In this document: positions 124 through 8,204 of the stretch, one piece after another
How the letters are laid out: each line of letters begins with the position of its first letter
How positions within the stretch are numbered: the first letter of the stretch is position 1
Origin: Anaerolineales bacterium
GTDB taxonomy: Bacteria > Chloroflexota > Anaerolineae > Anaerolineales > UBA4823
Length of the DNA: 8,375 nt
Assembly: GCA_016932955.1 (NCBI GenBank)
Contig: JAFGBV010000272.1
Coordinates: forward strand, 1-8,375
Direction of reading: 5' to 3'
The notes under the pieces: model-generated
Told to the model about the DNA's origin: nothing
Database searches by the model: none
The model's input: the letters and a program-made list of their open reading frames with translations, nothing else
Program-made: the position numbers and the translations under genes

Positions 124-152
124 AGTTTACCGAATTATGGCGTAAAAGTCAA
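124..152 (-). promoter_or_regulatory. Predicted sigma70-type promoter of the LacI-like gene
   Basis: On the minus strand TTGACT (complement of 147-152) and TAAACT (complement of 124-129) are separated by exactly 17 nt. Initiation would fall near 117. This leaves the GTG start at 84 inside the transcript, but not the ATG at 123, which supports the start chosen for the LacI-like gene. Confidence 0.6.
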
Positions 153-161
153 TACCTTTTT

Positions 162-177
162 TGAAAGTATACTTGCA
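162..177 (+). promoter_or_regulatory. Operator copy 1 (TGAAAG-N4-CTTGCA), overlapping a -35 box
   Basis: TGAAAGTATACTTGCA is a near-perfect inverted repeat with one unpaired position per half. It is one of four sites of the same design at 162, 209, 451 and 501. Its right half contains the TTGCA of the -35 hexamer of the first rightward promoter, so occupancy should interfere with RNA polymerase. The likely binder is the RpiR-type regulator encoded at 569-1453; that is inference. Confidence 0.6.
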
Positions 178-201
178 TTTTTGTAAATTTTGATATATGA
201 C
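173..201 (+). promoter_or_regulatory. Predicted promoter P1 (TTGCAT - 17 nt - TATGAC)
   Basis: A -35-like TTGCAT at 173-178 and a -10-like TATGAC at 196-201 have a 17-nt spacer in an AT-rich stretch. An alternative -10, TATATG at 194-199, overlaps it with a poorer 15-nt spacer. The next gene start is the HAD stub at 313. P1 is flanked by operator copies 1 and 2 in the same way that P2 is flanked by copies 3 and 4. Confidence 0.5.
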
Positions 202-208
202 ATACAAA

Positions 209-224
209 TGAAAGAAAACTTTCA
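209..224 (+). promoter_or_regulatory. Operator copy 2 (perfect TGAAAG-AAAA-CTTTCA)
   Basis: This is a perfect inverted repeat with 6-bp arms and a 4-nt AAAA centre, located immediately downstream of P1 near the expected transcription start. It begins 47 bp after copy 1. A further isolated half-site, TGAAAG, occurs at 238-243. Confidence 0.65.
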
Positions 225-257
225 CAATAATCACAAATGAAAGCCATACTGATAAGA

Positions 258-277
258 TGTGCAACCGGGTATGCACA
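258..277. repeat. Imperfect inverted repeat TGTGCA-N8-TGCACA in the leader before the HAD stub
   Basis: Six-base arms at 258-263 and 272-277 pair perfectly around an 8-nt centre, ACCGGGTA. The arms carry the same hexamers as the 14-bp palindrome at 99-112, but in the opposite (everted) order. It could be a second regulator site or a small hairpin in the leader RNA. Evidence is limited to symmetry. Confidence 0.35.
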
Positions 278-312
278 AGAAACCAACCGCCTGTTCAGGA
301 GAGATTAACAGT

Positions 313-489
313 ATGAACTATGAGATCGAAGCCATTTTTCTGGATGTAGGCAATACACTGCGGCTTGTGATGGAAATTTGCGACCTGCTGGTAGATACCA
401 GCGGAGCCGCGTTGTGGGCAACGGCGGAAATGACGGAAATCTTACAAGCACGAAAGATCACTTGCAAAATATTGAATATTATTGTATGA
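313..489 (+). pseudogene. HAD-superfamily phosphatase, 5' stub only
   Basis: The ORF starts at ATG 313 with AGGAG at 297-301 and opens with MNYEIEAIFLDVGNTLRLV. This contains HAD motif I as FLDVGNTL, with the nucleophile Asp and the conserved Thr four residues on. After roughly residue 20 I no longer recognise the family. The remaining ~38 residues look like non-homologous read-through, and the ORF stops at 487-489. A normal enzyme of this type has about 220-260 residues, so motifs II-IV and the cap are absent. The tail of the ORF overlaps operator copy 3 and promoter P2 of the next gene. That fits a deletion that joined the HAD 5' end to the rpiR promoter region. A second HAD remnant lies at 3480-3949. 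Assignment rests on motif I and the N-terminal pattern. Confidence 0.6.
451..466 (+). promoter_or_regulatory. Operator copy 3 (CGAAAG-ATCA-CTTGCA), overlapping a -35 box
   Basis: It matches copy 1 at 11 of the 12 arm positions (first T replaced by C). As at copy 1, its right arm supplies the TTGCA of a -35 hexamer. It lies in the tail of the HAD stub ORF, which implies that ORF no longer has a coding constraint here. Confidence 0.6.
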
Positions 490-490
490 T
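462..490 (+). promoter_or_regulatory. Predicted promoter P2 of the rpiR-phosphate transport operon (TTGCAA - 17 nt - TATGAT)
   Basis: TTGCAA at 462-467 and TATGAT at 485-490 are separated by 17 nt within AT-rich DNA. The expected start site is near 497, giving a leader of about 70 nt to the ATG at 569. It is the best promoter candidate for the rightward gene set and is bracketed by operator copies 3 and 4. Confidence 0.65.
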
Positions 491-500
491 TTCCAATTAT

Positions 501-516
501 TGCAAGCGTAGTTTCA
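501..516 (-). promoter_or_regulatory. Operator copy 4 (inverted copy, just downstream of P2)
   Basis: The plus strand reads TGCAAGCGTAGTTTCA. Its complement, TGAAACTACGCTTGCA, fits TGAAAG-N4-CTTGCA at 11 of 12 arm positions. It starts 50 bp after copy 3, close to the 47 bp between copies 1 and 2. A further TGCAAG half-site is at 530-535. Confidence 0.6.
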
Positions 517-2455: not shown

Positions 2456-3442
2456 ATGTCTGTAGCGCTGATTATCGTGATTGTTTTGGCTCTGGCCTTT
2501 GATTTCCTGAACGGCATCCACGATTCAAGTAATGTGGTCGCCACCATGATCTCCTCACGCGCCGTCTCGCCCCGTTTTGCTCTGGGTATCACTGCCCTGG
2601 CAAATTTCATCGGCCCTTTCATTTTCGGGGTAGCGGTGGCAGAGACGATCGGGAATGAGATTGTGCATCCGGATACGATCAACATTCAGGTAATTCTCGC
2701 TGCGTTGACCAGCGCGATCCTGTGGAATTTGCTCACCTGGTATCTGGGATTGCCCAGCAGTTCCTCGCACGCATTGGTGGGGGGCTTCATCGGCGCGGTC
2801 ATTGTCGGTGCTGGCTGGCAGATGATCCAGATCAAAGGCCTGGAGAAAGTGCTCATCGCCCTGTTCGCCTCGCCGATCATCGGATTTGTATTCGGGTTCA
2901 TCGTCACTCGCGTGGTGATGGTTCTGTGCTGGAACGCCACCCCCAAGGTGAATTGGATTTTCAAACGCGGGCAATTGGTGACTGCGCTCTCTCTCGCCCT
3001 TAGCCACGGCACCAACGACGCCCAGAAGACCATGGGGATCATTACCCTGGCTCTGGTCACCGGCGGTTATCTCACAGTATTCAAAGTGCCGACGATCATC
3101 ATATTCTTATGCGCAGGGATGATCGCCCTCGGTACTGCAGTAGGTGGCTGGAAACTGATCCGCACTCTGGGCGGCAAATTCTATAAAATCCGCCCCATGG
3201 ATAGCTTCAACGCACAACTGGCATCTGCCGTTGTCATCCTGGGGAGCTCCATCCTCGGCGGTCCGGTCAGCACCACGCAGGTGGTCAGCTCGTCAATCAT
3301 GGGTGTTGGGGCAGCTGACCGGGCCAACAAGGTACGCTGGAGAGTGGCTGGAGATATTGCCCTCGCCTGGCTGCTCACCATCCCCGCCACCGCCCTGGTC
3401 GCCGCGGGGCTATATCGTCTTATCCTGGTAATCTTCCCCTGA
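2456..3442 (+). CDS. PiT-family inorganic phosphate transporter
   Basis: This 328-residue multi-pass membrane protein has the PHO4/PiT inverted duplication. The first-half signature is DFLNGIHDSSNVVATMISS (residues 16-34, an NGxHDxxN type). The second-half signature is SHGTNDAQKTMGI from residue 183. Each is followed further on by a Ser-rich loop: GLPSSSSHALVGG in the first half and GPVSTTQVVSSSIMGVGAA in the second, where many homologues have His instead of Gln. PiT proteins move phosphate, usually as a metal-phosphate complex, across the cytoplasmic membrane driven by H+ or Na+. Length matches short bacterial members. The start at 2456 has TGGAG at 2445-2449 with 6 nt spacing. The DUF47 gene immediately upstream is the usual partner. 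Phosphate as substrate is family knowledge, not seen directly. Confidence 0.95.
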   Translation: MSVALIIVIVLALAFDFLNGIHDSSNVVATMISSRAVSPRFALGITALANFIGPFIFGVAVAETIGNEIVHPDTINIQVILAALTSAILWNLLTWYLGLPSSSSHALVGGFIGAVIVGAGWQMIQIKGLEKVLIALFASPIIGFVFGFIVTRVVMVLCWNATPKVNWIFKRGQLVTALSLALSHGTNDAQKTMGIITLALVTGGYLTVFKVPTIIIFLCAGMIALGTAVGGWKLIRTLGGKFYKIRPMDSFNAQLASAVVILGSSILGGPVSTTQVVSSSIMGVGAADRANKVRWRVAGDIALAWLLTIPATALVAAGLYRLILVIFP

Positions 3443-3479: not shown

Positions 3480-3949
3480 ATGAAAGCCATTTTCTTTAAC
3501 GCCAAACGGATCTTGTACGACCGCCCGAACCCGCACTACTACCTGCGGGCGTTCCTGGAGTCGCAGGGTCTCCCCCTCCCCTCGGATGATGAGATCAAGA
3601 CAATGATCCCCGATGTAAAGAACCTCACCAAGCGCGGCCGTCTGGTGCATGAGGTGTACAGTGATGCCCTGCTCAAGGCATGTGGGCTGACAGACCCCGC
3701 ATTGTTTGTCGCTGGCGAAAGGGCTATCGAACGCGACCGCACCAACATCACCATGCTGCCCTTTCTCAGGCAGGCGTGGCAGCCTCCGAGTCCGTTTTCG
3801 TCGGCTTTCACGAGCGCGAAGTGCTCGGCGCGCGGCGCTGTGGCATGGCCACGGTAGCTTTACCCGGCGATCCTTCTGCTGAAGCAGACTATCGCCTGGA
3901 GCATTTTGAAGATCTGCTCACCCTACCGTTGCTCGAATCCGTGTCGTAA
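3480..3949 (+). pseudogene. HAD-superfamily hydrolase with internal deletion and frameshift
   Basis: ATG 3480 follows GGAGG at 3470-3474, 37 nt after the PiT stop. Frame one reads MKAIFFNAKRILYDRPNPHY through about MLPFL (near 3766). It resembles the N-terminal half of a HAD phosphatase, but motif I has Asn (residue 7) where the family nucleophile is Asp. Frame two continues from about 3767 with QAGVAASESVFVGFHEREV, then LGARRCGMATVALPGD. This is the C-terminal motif IV region (usually FVGD/H...GA...GM.TV), and it ends at the TAA at 3947-3949. The middle of the enzyme (cap, motifs II-III, probably around 100 codons) is missing and the frame changes at the join. A single event, deletion with a non-multiple of three, explains both. 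Left as is, frame one stops at 3857. A sequencing indel alone would not explain the missing centre. Confidence 0.75.
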
Positions 3950-3976
3950 TCTACTGGTTTTGAAAGGTGTTCGCGC

Positions 3977-4267
3977 GTGGTTCAAAATAAACCTTATGAT
4001 GTAGTTTATATCGGTAATTACACCAAAGATACCATCATCTCTCCAGCAGGCACCCGCTATGTGGACGGGGGAGGATCGCGCTATGCTGCCTACGCCGCAG
4101 CGCGCCTGGGGAAAAACGTGGCCATTGTCACCCACCTGGCGCGGGAAGATGAGCGCATCGTTGATGATCTGAAGCGGTCGGGGATTGACTGCTATGCCAC
4201 CTTTACACCATGGGGTTCTATCCCAATAACCTCACATGACAGGTACAATCACGGATCGATTCGCTAA
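3977..4267 (+). pseudogene. PfkB/ribokinase-family sugar kinase, N-terminal fragment
   Basis: GTG 3977 is preceded by GAAAGG (3962-3967). The reading frame opens with YDVVYIGNYTKDTIISPAGT (residues 7-26), then YVDGGGSRYAAYAAARLG, the PfkB N-terminal pattern with the GG substrate-side motif. VAIVTHLAREDERIVDDLK and SGIDCYATFTP follow, ending at about residue 77. Family resemblance then stops, and after about 19 unrelated residues there is a stop at 4265-4267. A functional PfkB kinase has about 290-330 residues, and the C-terminal ATP-binding/catalytic GxGD region is absent, so this fragment cannot phosphorylate a sugar. It follows the HAD remnant by 27 nt, so kinase and phosphatase were probably one operon with the upstream genes before the deletion. 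Confidence 0.75.
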
Positions 4268-5002: not shown

Positions 5003-7225
5003 TTATTCTTGCACATTTCCATCCCCGTCCACCTTGATCAGCAGTGTGTACCAGCCCCGCCCTCCGTCACTGGCATTACCGACGATCAGGTATCCGCCGT
5101 CTAGCGCCTCCAGGATCGCCACGCCTGCCCGGTGACCGCTCCCTTGGGAGATGATCTGTTGCCACATCACTTCCCCCTCCTCGTCCAGCCGGATCAGCGG
5201 GATGCTCCCCTTTCCTCCAGGCTCCGCCAGCCCGGTGACCAGGTAGCCGCCCTCCGAAAGAGCATACACCTCGCCAGCATAATCAAATACACCCGTCTCG
5301 CCAATAGCTGAGGACCATAGGATATTCCCCATCGCATCGACCTGAATGAGCAGTGGGTCCGTATCCGCCGGCTCACCGCTCGCGGAGCGCAGCCCCGTGA
5401 TCAGGTAGTTGCCATCTGACATCGGTAGCATATTGAATCCTGCCTGCACGCCCGGCTCCTCCAAAGCCTTCTCCCACAGCATATTCCCCTGCCCATCCGT
5501 GCGGACCAGGTAGATGTCGGGGTTCTGCGCCAGGTAGTCGCCGCCTGCATGCAGAAGCGCCCCCAGGATCAGGAACCCGCCATCTGGCAGCGCGACCGCA
5601 TCGTACCCCTCTTCGTCCAACTCGCTGCCATAGGTCTGCGCCCACAGCGCATTCCCCAGCGCGTCGGTTTGGATCACGTAAACGTCCGTCCCACCTGCGC
5701 CAAAGGAAGCCGTCTGCCCCACCAGCAGATAGCCGTCCGCGCTGGGCTGGAAACCTGCCGCCATCTCATCCTGCTCCCCGCCATACATCTGCGACCAGAG
5801 CATCTCGCCTTGCTCATCGACCGCCAGCAAGATGATGTCGCGCCCGCCCGCGCCCGCGGAACGGCTCTCCCCCAGGATCATGTATCCCCCATCCATGCCG
5901 GGGAGGATGCCCGCCCCGCGGTCGAAGCGCACCCCGTCCAGCGTTCTCTCCCAGAGCACCTCCCCCCTCGCATCAGTCTTCATCATGTAGAGATCTTCCT
6001 CATCCGTGTTGTAGTGAGAATAATGACTCGCGCCGACGAAAAGGTACCCCCCATCCGCCGTCGTGACGCCATCCAGCGCTGTGCCCGTCGCCTCAGGATA
6101 CGAGCGGCTCCAGGTGTTGGCCTGCTCCTCCCCGCCTGGCTGCCACACCGAGTTGAAGTCATCCCCGGGGCTGTTCGTCAGGCGGTACACATTGCTCCCG
6201 TCCGCATCCATCACATAGATTTCCAGGTTGCCATCCCGCCACGAACTGAACGTGATCCGGCTGCCATCCGGCGACCAGCGCGGGAACCAGTCTGCCGCCT
6301 CGTGATTGCTCAGGTTGCGCAGGTTGCTCCCGTCCGCCTCCATCACGAAGATTTCCTCATTCCCAGTGCGGTCCGAATAAAAGGCGATCTGCTTGCCATC
6401 CGGCGACCAGGCTGGCGCGTGGTCTTCCGCAGGGTCATCCGTCAGGCGGCGCACATTGCTGCCGTCCGCATCCATCACATAGAGCTCATGGTTGCCGTCG
6501 CGATCCGAGGAAAAGACAAGCTGCGCCCCATCCGGCGACCAGGATGCCAGCATATCATCCGCCGGGTGGTTCGATAGATTGACCGGCGTTCCGCCCTCTA
6601 CGCTGATGATAAAGATCTCACGGTTATCGCCTGAACAGCTCCCCCCGTCATAGGTGATCCGCGTGCCGTCCGGCGACCAGTGCGGCGCGCCGTCGCAGGA
6701 GGCGCCATCAGTGAGCTGGCGCGGATTGCCCCCATCTGCATCCATGATCTTGATCACCCAATGCTGTTCGTCGATGTAGCTGTAATAGGCGATCTGCTTG
6801 CCGTCCGGCGACCAGTCGGGGAAGCCATCCCATTCATCCCAATTCGTCAATCGCTGCGGGTTGCTCCCGTCAGCATTCATCACATAGATTTCACCGTTGC
6901 CACCCTGAACGTGCACATAGGCGATCAGCCCGCTGCCGCTGGGCGGAGGGGCAGACGTGTCGGTTGGCGGGGGCAGGGTGCGGGTCGGTGGAGGCAGGGT
7001 CGCGGTTGATGCAAGCGGCGTGGGACTCTCCGGGATAGCGCTTGGCAAAGGGGTGAATGTTGCCTGCCCTGTTTCGCTGGGAGATGCAGGCGTGTTGCTA
7101 GCCGGTGCGCTCGCCGTCTCAGTCGTCGCCGCACAGCCCGTTACCAAGACGACAATAACCATGATCCCAAATGCCTTCATGGTTATCGACAATGAACTGA
7201 CTTGTAATTTCCGTTTTTCCTTCAT
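5003..7225 (-). CDS. Double beta-propeller lipoprotein (TolB-like six-repeat + seven-repeat DGGY domain)
   Basis: The 740-residue product starts with a lipoprotein signal: basic N-terminus, hydrophobic core FGIMVIVVL and lipobox LVTGC with the lipidated Cys at 31. A Pro/Thr/Ser-rich tether follows (about 35-98). Residues ~100-365 hold six TolB/PD40-type blades built on EIYVM.ADGSN..RLT and WSPDG; the last blade has WQPGG. Residues ~370-737 hold seven further repeats of the type DGGYLxxG ... D..G..LW. The protein should be anchored outside the cytoplasmic membrane, probably as a binding or scaffold protein; no catalytic site is visible. The start at 7225 has GAGGTG 6 nt upstream. The ATG at codon 16 has none. 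It follows the MBL gene by 25 nt and is probably cotranscribed with it. Domain order and location are well supported; the ligand is unknown. Confidence 0.9.
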   Translation of the reverse strand: MKEKRKLQVSSLSITMKAFGIMVIVVLVTGCAATTETASAPASNTPASPSETGQATFTPLPSAIPESPTPLASTATLPPPTRTLPPPTDTSAPPPSGSGLIAYVHVQGGNGEIYVMNADGSNPQRLTNWDEWDGFPDWSPDGKQIAYYSYIDEQHWVIKIMDADGGNPRQLTDGASCDGAPHWSPDGTRITYDGGSCSGDNREIFIISVEGGTPVNLSNHPADDMLASWSPDGAQLVFSSDRDGNHELYVMDADGSNVRRLTDDPAEDHAPAWSPDGKQIAFYSDRTGNEEIFVMEADGSNLRNLSNHEAADWFPRWSPDGSRITFSSWRDGNLEIYVMDADGSNVYRLTNSPGDDFNSVWQPGGEEQANTWSRSYPEATGTALDGVTTADGGYLFVGASHYSHYNTDEEDLYMMKTDARGEVLWERTLDGVRFDRGAGILPGMDGGYMILGESRSAGAGGRDIILLAVDEQGEMLWSQMYGGEQDEMAAGFQPSADGYLLVGQTASFGAGGTDVYVIQTDALGNALWAQTYGSELDEEGYDAVALPDGGFLILGALLHAGGDYLAQNPDIYLVRTDGQGNMLWEKALEEPGVQAGFNMLPMSDGNYLITGLRSASGEPADTDPLLIQVDAMGNILWSSAIGETGVFDYAGEVYALSEGGYLVTGLAEPGGKGSIPLIRLDEEGEVMWQQIISQGSGHRAGVAILEALDGGYLIVGNASDGGRGWYTLLIKVDGDGNVQE
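5006..6118 (-). repeat. Seven degenerate coding repeats (DGGYLxxG type) of the second propeller-like domain
   Basis: Seven copies of a DGGYL.VG-like strand (for example DGGYLFVG, DGGYMILG, DGGFLILG, EGGYLVTG, DGGYLIVG) alternate with seven D..G..LW-like strands (DARGEVLW, DEQGEMLW, DALGNALW, DGQGNMLW, DAMGNILW, DEEGEVMW and a terminal DGDGNVQE). Unit length is roughly 45-60 codons. The count suggests a seven-bladed propeller, but blade closure cannot be judged from sequence by eye. Confidence 0.7.
6131..6928 (-). repeat. Six tandem coding repeats (~44 codons) of the TolB-like propeller
   Basis: The plus strand shows a recurring block around TCCGGCGACCAG (complement encodes W-S-P-D-G) together with a GTCCGCNTCCATCAC-type block (complement encodes VM.ADG). 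Each unit is about 130 bases. These are in-gene repeats of one propeller domain. They also create long accidental open frames on the opposite strand. Confidence 0.85.
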
Positions 7226-7250: not shown

Positions 7251-8204
7251 TCATCCACCAGACTGGCGCTTGAACGTGGCGCGCACATTGGCCTCGAACC
7301 TGTGCCCCAATCCCTGCCAACCATCGAACGGCGCTGGAAGAGTCTGGCGCAGAGCGTCCTTCACCGTCCCACCCCGCTGAACCACCTGCCGCACCATCTC
7401 TTCCAACACCTGGATGTACCTTGCCTCGAGCGCCAGGTCGTCTTTGCCACCCAGCGGCCCATGCCCCGGCACAAAAGTCTCGATCTCCCAATCCGCCATC
7501 TCCTCCAGCCGCGCGATCCATTCATCCGGGTAGCCGTAGGGCATGAACGGCTGCGATTGGAAGAAGCCCAGGTCGCCGATGAAAGCCACCCCATCATCGT
7601 CCAGGCGCAAGACGCAGTCGCTTGCCGTGTGCCCTCTTCCTGTGGCAATCAATTCCGCAGAACGTTTCGTTCCATGGAAGACAAGGTTCCCCTCGAAGGT
7701 CTGGTTGGGCAGCGTCGGTTCCAGCGTGGGCAGCGCCTGCAGCATATGCTGTTGGCGGGCAATCGCATTCTGCAGCAGTCGGCGCCTCTCCGGGTCCTTC
7801 TCCTTCGCCAGCAACTTCTCGCTGCGGCGTATATCCCTTTCGATCACTGCGGGCTTTTTCTTATCTGCCAGCATCTCCTCGGCAATTGGGATCATCTCCT
7901 GGAGCGTACGTTCCGTCGCCAGGATCGTGCTGCCAGCGAAAACCTGCGCCCCGGCCCAGTGATCGGGATGGAAATGGCTGATGATCACCACTTCCGGCTT
8001 GCGCCCGATCAACTGCAGGGATGCCTTCAGCAAATCTTCCGCTGCCGGGGGATTCTCGAAGGTGTCAAAGACCAGCGTGCGCTCCCCCAGGTCGACCAAC
8101 CCCGCGTTCGAAAAACCCGCTCCTGCCTCGGTAGCGATGGCGGCATAAATCCCCTCGCTCAACGGGTGCAGGGTGAAATGTTCTGACTCGCTCAATCGCT
8201 CCAT
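7251..8204 (-). CDS. MBL-fold metallo-hydrolase
   Basis: This 317-residue cytoplasmic-looking protein (no signal peptide) has a complete metallo-beta-lactamase metal site: HFHPDH (77-82), H192 in GRGHTASD, D211 in FIGDLGF and H248 in VPGHGP. It should hold two metal ions and hydrolyse a substrate that cannot be named from sequence. Between the first and second metal motifs is a long, charged, probably coiled or helical insert (about 98-160; KKKPAVIERDIRRSEKLL, then KDPERRRLLQNAIARQQ). The start at 8204 is chosen over an in-frame ATG at 8234 because GGAGGAG lies about 6-8 nt upstream of it and because the extra ten codons include that ribosome site. It lies 42 nt after the serine hydrolase stop and 25 nt before the lipoprotein start, so the three form a likely operon. 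Confidence 0.9.
   Translation of the reverse strand: MERLSESEHFTLHPLSEGIYAAIATEAGAGFSNAGLVDLGERTLVFDTFENPPAAEDLLKASLQLIGRKPEVVIISHFHPDHWAGAQVFAGSTILATERTLQEMIPIAEEMLADKKKPAVIERDIRRSEKLLAKEKDPERRRLLQNAIARQQHMLQALPTLEPTLPNQTFEGNLVFHGTKRSAELIATGRGHTASDCVLRLDDDGVAFIGDLGFFQSQPFMPYGYPDEWIARLEEMADWEIETFVPGHGPLGGKDDLALEARYIQVLEEMVRQVVQRGGTVKDALRQTLPAPFDGWQGLGHRFEANVRATFKRQSGG

Follow-up and report, generated by a model that had tools for sequence, protein, structure and literature searches.

The window, the whole 8,375-bp stretch of DNA that was analysed, carries four TGAAAG-type sites which probably (at about 80%) serve as operators for the RpiR-family regulator whose gene lies at 569-1453 on the forward strand. 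Judging from conserved sites and gene neighbourhoods, RpiR would act through them on two promoters, P1 and P2, each belonging to one half of a gene island. From DNA alone, this would give an uncharacterised Anaerolineae subgroup of RpiR proteins its operator, the layout of its promoters and a target set in two parts.

Scanning the window with the pattern TGMAAGNNNNCTTKCA and allowing at most one mismatch, we found exactly four sites, at 162-177, 209-224, 451-466 and 501-516, the same as those listed in the preliminary description. The chance expectation for the 8375-bp window is 0.10 matches, and none of 200 shuffles reached four. A chance origin of the sites in AT-rich DNA was ruled out by local shuffling, as dinucleotide shuffling confined to the AT-rich stretch 120-568 gave a mean of 0.011 matches and reached four in 0 of 5000 cases.

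The four sites form two modules of similar construction on the forward strand. In P1, the right arm of the putative operator 1 (TGAAAGTATACTTGCA, 162-177) runs into the -35 box TTGCAT (173-178), which is followed after 17 nt by the -10 box TATGAC (196-201) and, after a 7-nt gap, by the putative operator 2 (TGAAAGAAAACTTTCA, 209-224). P2 repeats this arrangement with a putative operator 1 (CGAAAGATCACTTGCA, 451-466) running into the -35 box TTGCAA (462-467), a -10 box TATGAT (485-490) again 17 nt away, and a putative operator 2 (TGCAAGCGTAGTTTCA, 501-516) beyond a 10-nt gap. The operators start 47 bp apart in P1 and 50 bp apart in P2. Both this geometry and these spacings had been described before, and re-measurement returned the same values. 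Both modules also have a third site, a half operator beginning 29 bp past the start of operator 2 (TGAAAG at 238-243 in P1 and TGCAAG at 530-535 in P2). P1 and P2 are 289 bp apart in the window. A promoter scan called P2 (462-490) and missed the TTGCAT/TATGAC of P1, the -10 box of which has no final T, and a search of the window against the RNA families of Rfam returned nothing at gathering scores.

Orthologues of RpiR were collected from genomes of the class (14 of 396 at E <= 1e-60), of families (9 of 152 and 1 of 28 at 1e-80; 2 of 38 at 1e-110), and of the order and the phylum (21 of 400 and 1 of 400, respectively, at 1e-85), these searches overlapping in genomes. We left out of the counts L001/L002 (one genome, with 93 bp upstream), L004 and L026, where the contig begins inside the gene, and L018/L019, which are the same genes as L006/L007. 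In a tree of 40 RpiR proteins, the window protein and 26 others fell on one side of a 100/100 split. Usable upstream DNA was available for 25 of these 26, the exception being L002 with its 93 bp.

All 25 orthologues have an operator pair, or a variant of it, beside rpiR or at the start of its gene row, so that the phylogenetic footprinting proposed as a check in the preliminary description came out strongly positive. Since several of the genomes are close kin, however, counts among the relatives are not independent. The pair lies immediately before rpiR in 14 of the 25 and at the head of the gene row, 4.0-5.8 kb upstream, in eight; the remaining three (L028, L030 and L031) carry variant TGTAAG/TTACA operators. 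The distal pair was found 5.8 and 5.7 kb upstream in L029 and L033, the former with an additional single site 50 bp before rpiR. L038-L041, L043 and L044 have no pair near rpiR, yet when about 11 kb were followed, all six showed one before a HAD gene 4.0-4.5 kb upstream, with a spacing of 46-47 bp and two to three mismatches in operator 2. These six extra loci (about 73 kb) also contained six single near-matches without a partner. Among the 13 distant RpiR relatives on the other side of the split (41-49% identity), nine carry, in the 300 bp upstream, a site that deviates from the pattern at one position at most. In seven of the 13 (L010, L011 and L013-L017), the site ends in a TTGCA(A/T) -35 box with TATAAT 17 nt further on; L009 shares this promoter, its operator carrying two mismatches, L005-L007 have TGGCAA and TATAGT, and the operator-in-minus-35 layout could not be fitted to L008 and L012.

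The module recurring in Anaerolineae comprises TGAAAG-N4-CTTGCA, the right arm of which is the -35 box, 17 nt, a -10 box and another operator, 46-48 bp away from the first. Pairs were accepted with at most four mismatches in total, at most one in one of the sites, and a spacing of 44-52 bp, -10 boxes being tried at 16-18 nt only; because this finder required resemblance, the letter counts given below are conditioned on resemblance, the spacing counts much less so. Across 26 modules (24 from relatives and the two of the window), the spacing is 47 bp in 17, 48 bp in eight and 50 bp only in P2 of the window. At 19 loci, near-matches with at most one mismatch numbered 36 in 3,000 bp of promoter stretches versus three in 311,522 bp elsewhere, part of this background being counted twice where L048 and L049 overlap by ~5 kb. 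The 3,000 bp represent 25 stretches, namely the 24 modules and a single-site stretch before rpiR in L050.

The third site is conserved as well: a half-site resembling TTG(A/C)AAGT was found 29 bp past the start of operator 2 with at least six of eight letters in 17 of the 26 modules, and the other 52 offsets gave 0 or 1 each. A TG 29 bp past the start of operator 1 is present in 24 of 24 relatives and in P1 of the window (191-192), but absent from P2 of the window; it may be a promoter element or a degenerate half-site. This TG sits just upstream of the -10 box, and a G before the -10 is frequent. A reading of the conserved letters as elements of promoters used by a special sigma factor, instead of as operators, would agree with the invariance of this TG and of the CTTGCA of operator 1, which doubles as the -35 box (24/24 in the relatives). 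We nevertheless consider it extremely unlikely, as the left arms and operator 2, which lie outside the promoter boxes, are also conserved (operator 2 ends in TT(T/G)CA in 24/24 and has G at position 6 in 22/24), and both operator arms mirror each other.

The proposed binder is a 294-aa protein comprising an N-terminal HTH_6 domain (PF01418; E 3.5e-20, 72.2 bits against a cut-off of 28.3) and a C-terminal SIS domain of the sugar-phosphate type (PF01380; E 1e-7, 32.3 bits against 25). In all six genomes searched, RpiR was the sole match to PF01418 at E <= 1e-5. None of the NCBIfam models for RpiR subfamilies (HexR, MurR, AlsR and others) scored above its curated cut-off for the window protein, the best being PRK11557 with 80.1 bits against 355, followed by HexR (63.5 against 296) and MurR (38.7 against 408). 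The best PDB match was 8tx9 for the HTH domain and 4ivn for the full-length protein. We take 8tx9 to be Streptococcus pneumoniae NanR, because it carries exactly the residues named for that protein in its description (PMC12713135). In the alignment, Arg56, Ala52 and Arg67 of 8tx9 correspond to Arg61, Ala57 and Pro72 of the window protein.

The three orthologues with variant operators also differ in their recognition helix, which reads SEPTML where the other displayed rows of their side of the tree have SEAT, placing Pro at the position of Ala57. Their operators 2 are TGTAAGTTAATTTACA or TGTAAGTCTAATTACA, with TGTA(A/G) again at +29, and the operator 1 of this clade keeps only the -35 arm (CTTGCA; CTTGCT in L048). 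Among the 24 ordinary operators 2, a TTACA right arm occurs in none and a TGT left arm in six. The change from SEAT to SEPT accompanies the TGTAAG/TTACA operators in three of three cases, which count as one event because L028, L030 and L031 form a single clade (100/100).

Using the exact pattern, we scanned 12 genomes and obtained 25 sites versus six for a reversed control; 11 of the 25 lie in the island and 14 elsewhere. Of the 16 sites examined as loci (L065-L080), five have a partner at 47-48 bp, all in the island, while the remaining 11 have none, ten of them being located inside open frames of more than 200 codons. As none of these 16 sites has a partner outside the island, the regulator looks local rather than genome-wide, to the extent of the exact pattern.

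A second regulator gene adjoins P1. The first 84 nt of the window encode, on the reverse strand and divergently from P1, the N-terminal 28 codons of a LacI-family regulator (PF00356, E 1.1e-9), the rest of which lies beyond the window. Its probable promoter (TTGACT, 17 nt, TAAACT; 124-152, reverse strand) was assigned by consensus match only, and downstream of it lies a CG-centred palindrome, TTGCACACGTGTGCAT (98-113), which is probably an autoregulatory LacI operator. This LacI protein, rather than RpiR, might bind the TGAAAG sites: lacI adjoins P1 in six relatives as well as in the window, and PtxS, a LacI-family protein, binds TGAAACCGGTTTCA (PMC5902321), so TGAAA arms by themselves do not argue against a LacI protein. 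The comparison of loci with and without an adjacent lacI makes this very unlikely. The core of the palindrome, GCACACGTGTGC, is present at seven of seven loci with an adjacent lacI (window included) and at none of four without. At the latter four P1 loci (L050, L054, L057 and L060), none of which has an adjoining lacI ORF of that cluster, the TGAAAG pair persists without the palindrome; by eye, the sequence before P1 in L057 looks like a decayed lacI start. Furthermore, the TGAAAG sites do not have the CG centre of a LacI operator, which the palindrome at 98-113 does have, and the TGAAAG pair also occurs at rpiR, kilobases away from lacI. Together, the footprint, the sole PF01418 protein, the separate palindrome of lacI and the half-site of NanR support the earlier proposal that the motif would be the binding motif of RpiR.

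In the relatives, P1 is followed in varying order by genes for HAD hydrolases, a phosphoglycerate-mutase-like protein, an apgM-type mutase, PRK-type kinases and, in some, an MFS protein. P2 is followed by rpiR and genes for an ABC permease (closest to the NCBIfam model PhnU2, with 156 bits against a cut-off of 593), an ATPase, a binding protein, and HAD and HAD-TIM proteins, to which many relatives add DUF47, PiT and a PfkB kinase. The distance between P1 and P2 is 3.4-7.7 kb in the eight relatives in which both were found, and in the probable ancestral layout the promoters would head the two halves of one island, separated by that distance. The row of divergent genes on the lacI side of P1 contains iolB and iolD in L056, with iolE nearby in L057 (myo-inositol catabolism). 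These neighbours and the gene content suggest, without proving, that the substrate of the island is a phosphorylated cyclitol or sugar.

The protein encoded at L058:13508-15094 on the reverse strand is a naturally circularly permuted cofactor-independent phosphoglycerate mutase, whose residues 315-525 match 3-213 of 1EJJ and residues 16-306 match 219-508. In its cluster (L045-L063), ADHGN precedes LDGW and GNSE in 11 of 12 members, the twelfth being a fragment. Our literature search on circularly permuted phosphoglycerate mutase found no report.

The window itself retains a reduced island. BLAST against the open reading frames of relatives identified two 58-codon remnants on the forward strand, each an in-frame fusion. 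The first (313-489) fuses the initial 19 codons of the HAD hydrolase gene of P1, which is the gene the preliminary description had supposed to be once attached to P1, to ~25 codons of the terminal part of a PRK-type kinase gene found ahead of rpiR in relatives. In the second (1478-1654), the initial ~30 codons of the ABC permease gene run into ~24 codons from the 3' end of the HAD-TIM gene, the match to the HAD-TIM tail being weak (44-61% identity over 18-25 residues, best E 3.7e-5). The two fusions imply that several kilobases are missing on either side of the intact rpiR, most likely through a real double deletion rather than a misassembly. Behind them, also on the forward strand, lie genes for a DUF47 (PhoU-like) protein (1719-2435; PF01865) and a PiT-type phosphate transporter (2456-3442; PF01384), both in the same place as in relatives. 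We had considered an insertion of this gene pair behind rpiR and dropped it, since relatives have the pair there too. Behind the PiT gene, the stretch 3480-4267 holds two decayed genes on the same strand, a HAD hydrolase remnant broken over two frames (3480-3949; BLAST against relatives' open reading frames) and the N-terminal remnant of a truncated PfkB-type kinase (3977-4267; 48-71% identity to relatives' PfkB proteins). Because the two deletions took most of the island, RpiR would now govern mainly itself and the phosphate transporter; the regulator and its promoters have outlived most of the island they served. Two further genes on the reverse strand, for a 740-aa protein with repeated WSPDG motifs (5003-7225; of the TolB/propeller type by eye) and a metallo-beta-lactamase-fold protein (7251-8201), are apparently unrelated to the RpiR island.

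In the mechanism we propose, RpiR dimers would recognise TG(A/C)AAG half-sites and control HAD hydrolases, phosphoglycerate-mutase-like proteins and PRK-type kinases in the P1 half, and RpiR itself, the ABC importer, HAD proteins, DUF47-PiT and the PfkB kinase in the P2 half. Operator 1 overlaps the -35 box, and operator 2 lies over the likely start of transcription, so that bound RpiR would exclude RNA polymerase. The protein is probably a tetramer spanning ~47 bp, perhaps touching the half-site 29 bp further, and repression would be lifted by a phosphorylated sugar or cyclitol bound in the SIS domain. By arithmetic, 47 bp of B-DNA correspond to ~160 Å and ~4.5 helical turns, which places the operator dyads on opposite sides of the DNA. 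This arrangement suits a flexible tetramer that bridges the operators more than it suits contact on one face of the DNA or a small loop. Of the earlier suggestion that spacings of 47 and 50 bp suit cooperative binding or a small loop, the spacings stand, but ~4.5 turns fits the small loop less well. The spacing may also be set by the geometry of the -35 box, the -10 box and the transcription start.

The operator positions point to repression, which is not certain, as RpiR-family activators exist. GlaR, for instance, is named as one in the title of a paper (PMC6528599). S. pneumoniae NanR is likewise described as an activator in the sialic acid pathway, with a degenerate half palindrome ~23 bp off (PMC12713135), so where the operators lie is not enough to decide between repression and activation. 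By analogy with what has been proposed for NanR, operator-bound RpiR might aid RNA polymerase; half-sites are present here at 29 bp and the -35 boxes of P1 and P2 (TTGCAT and TTGCAA) are poor, but operator 1 on the -35 box and operator 2 on the likely start are polymerase-blocking positions, and we regard activation as unlikely. Each promoter could be gripped by an RpiR tetramer at two combinations of a full palindrome and, exactly 29 bp on, a degenerate TG half-site: operator 1 would pair with the TG just upstream of the -10 box, and operator 2 with TG(A/C)AAG in the leader. We put this forward tentatively, as a possible but doubtful refinement. If true, the repeated combination of a full site and a half-site at 29 bp would be a new DNA-recognition layout for the RpiR family, serving an undescribed organophosphate (perhaps inositol-phosphate) island. 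The modules offer a test case for RpiR tetramers possibly using paired sites and half-sites.

A search of the literature on Chloroflexi RpiR regulons, inositol-phosphate transport and Anaerolineae inositol regulators, mostly without subscription journals, found no published account of this regulon; the mechanism looks like one of a known kind, and the regulator and gene cluster seem unstudied. S. pneumoniae NanR was crystallised on TCTGAAAGTACTTTTAGA, with Arg56 essential and Ala52 facing the groove, and its sites have the half palindrome downstream; an extended tetramer of ~160 Å is described as well (PMC12713135). The two systems share the TGAAAG half-site, the HTH and SIS domains, the arginine at Arg56 (Arg61 here) and a proposed downstream half palindrome. 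They differ in the spacer (2 bp in NanR, 4 bp here), in the distance of the half palindrome (~23 versus 29 bp) and in the minor-groove Arg67, which aligns with Pro72 and has no equivalent here. Escherichia coli MurR, as recounted in the same source, binds two adjacent sites over the -35 and -10 boxes, for which bridging by a tetramer was proposed; these sites are 17 bp apart and span 47 bp, whereas the sites described here start 47 bp apart and span 63 bp in total. For Clostridium perfringens NanR, which belongs to the RpiR family like the window regulator, conserved GAAAAATATTTTC elements near transcription starts, possibly its own site, are reported (PMC4509764); this motif is shorter and the pathway is another. 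Finally, Pseudomonas HexR, with KDPG as its ligand, has several operators in each promoter region, close to the start (PMC5902321), as in the modules described here, although its motif, TTGT-N7/8-ACAA, differs.
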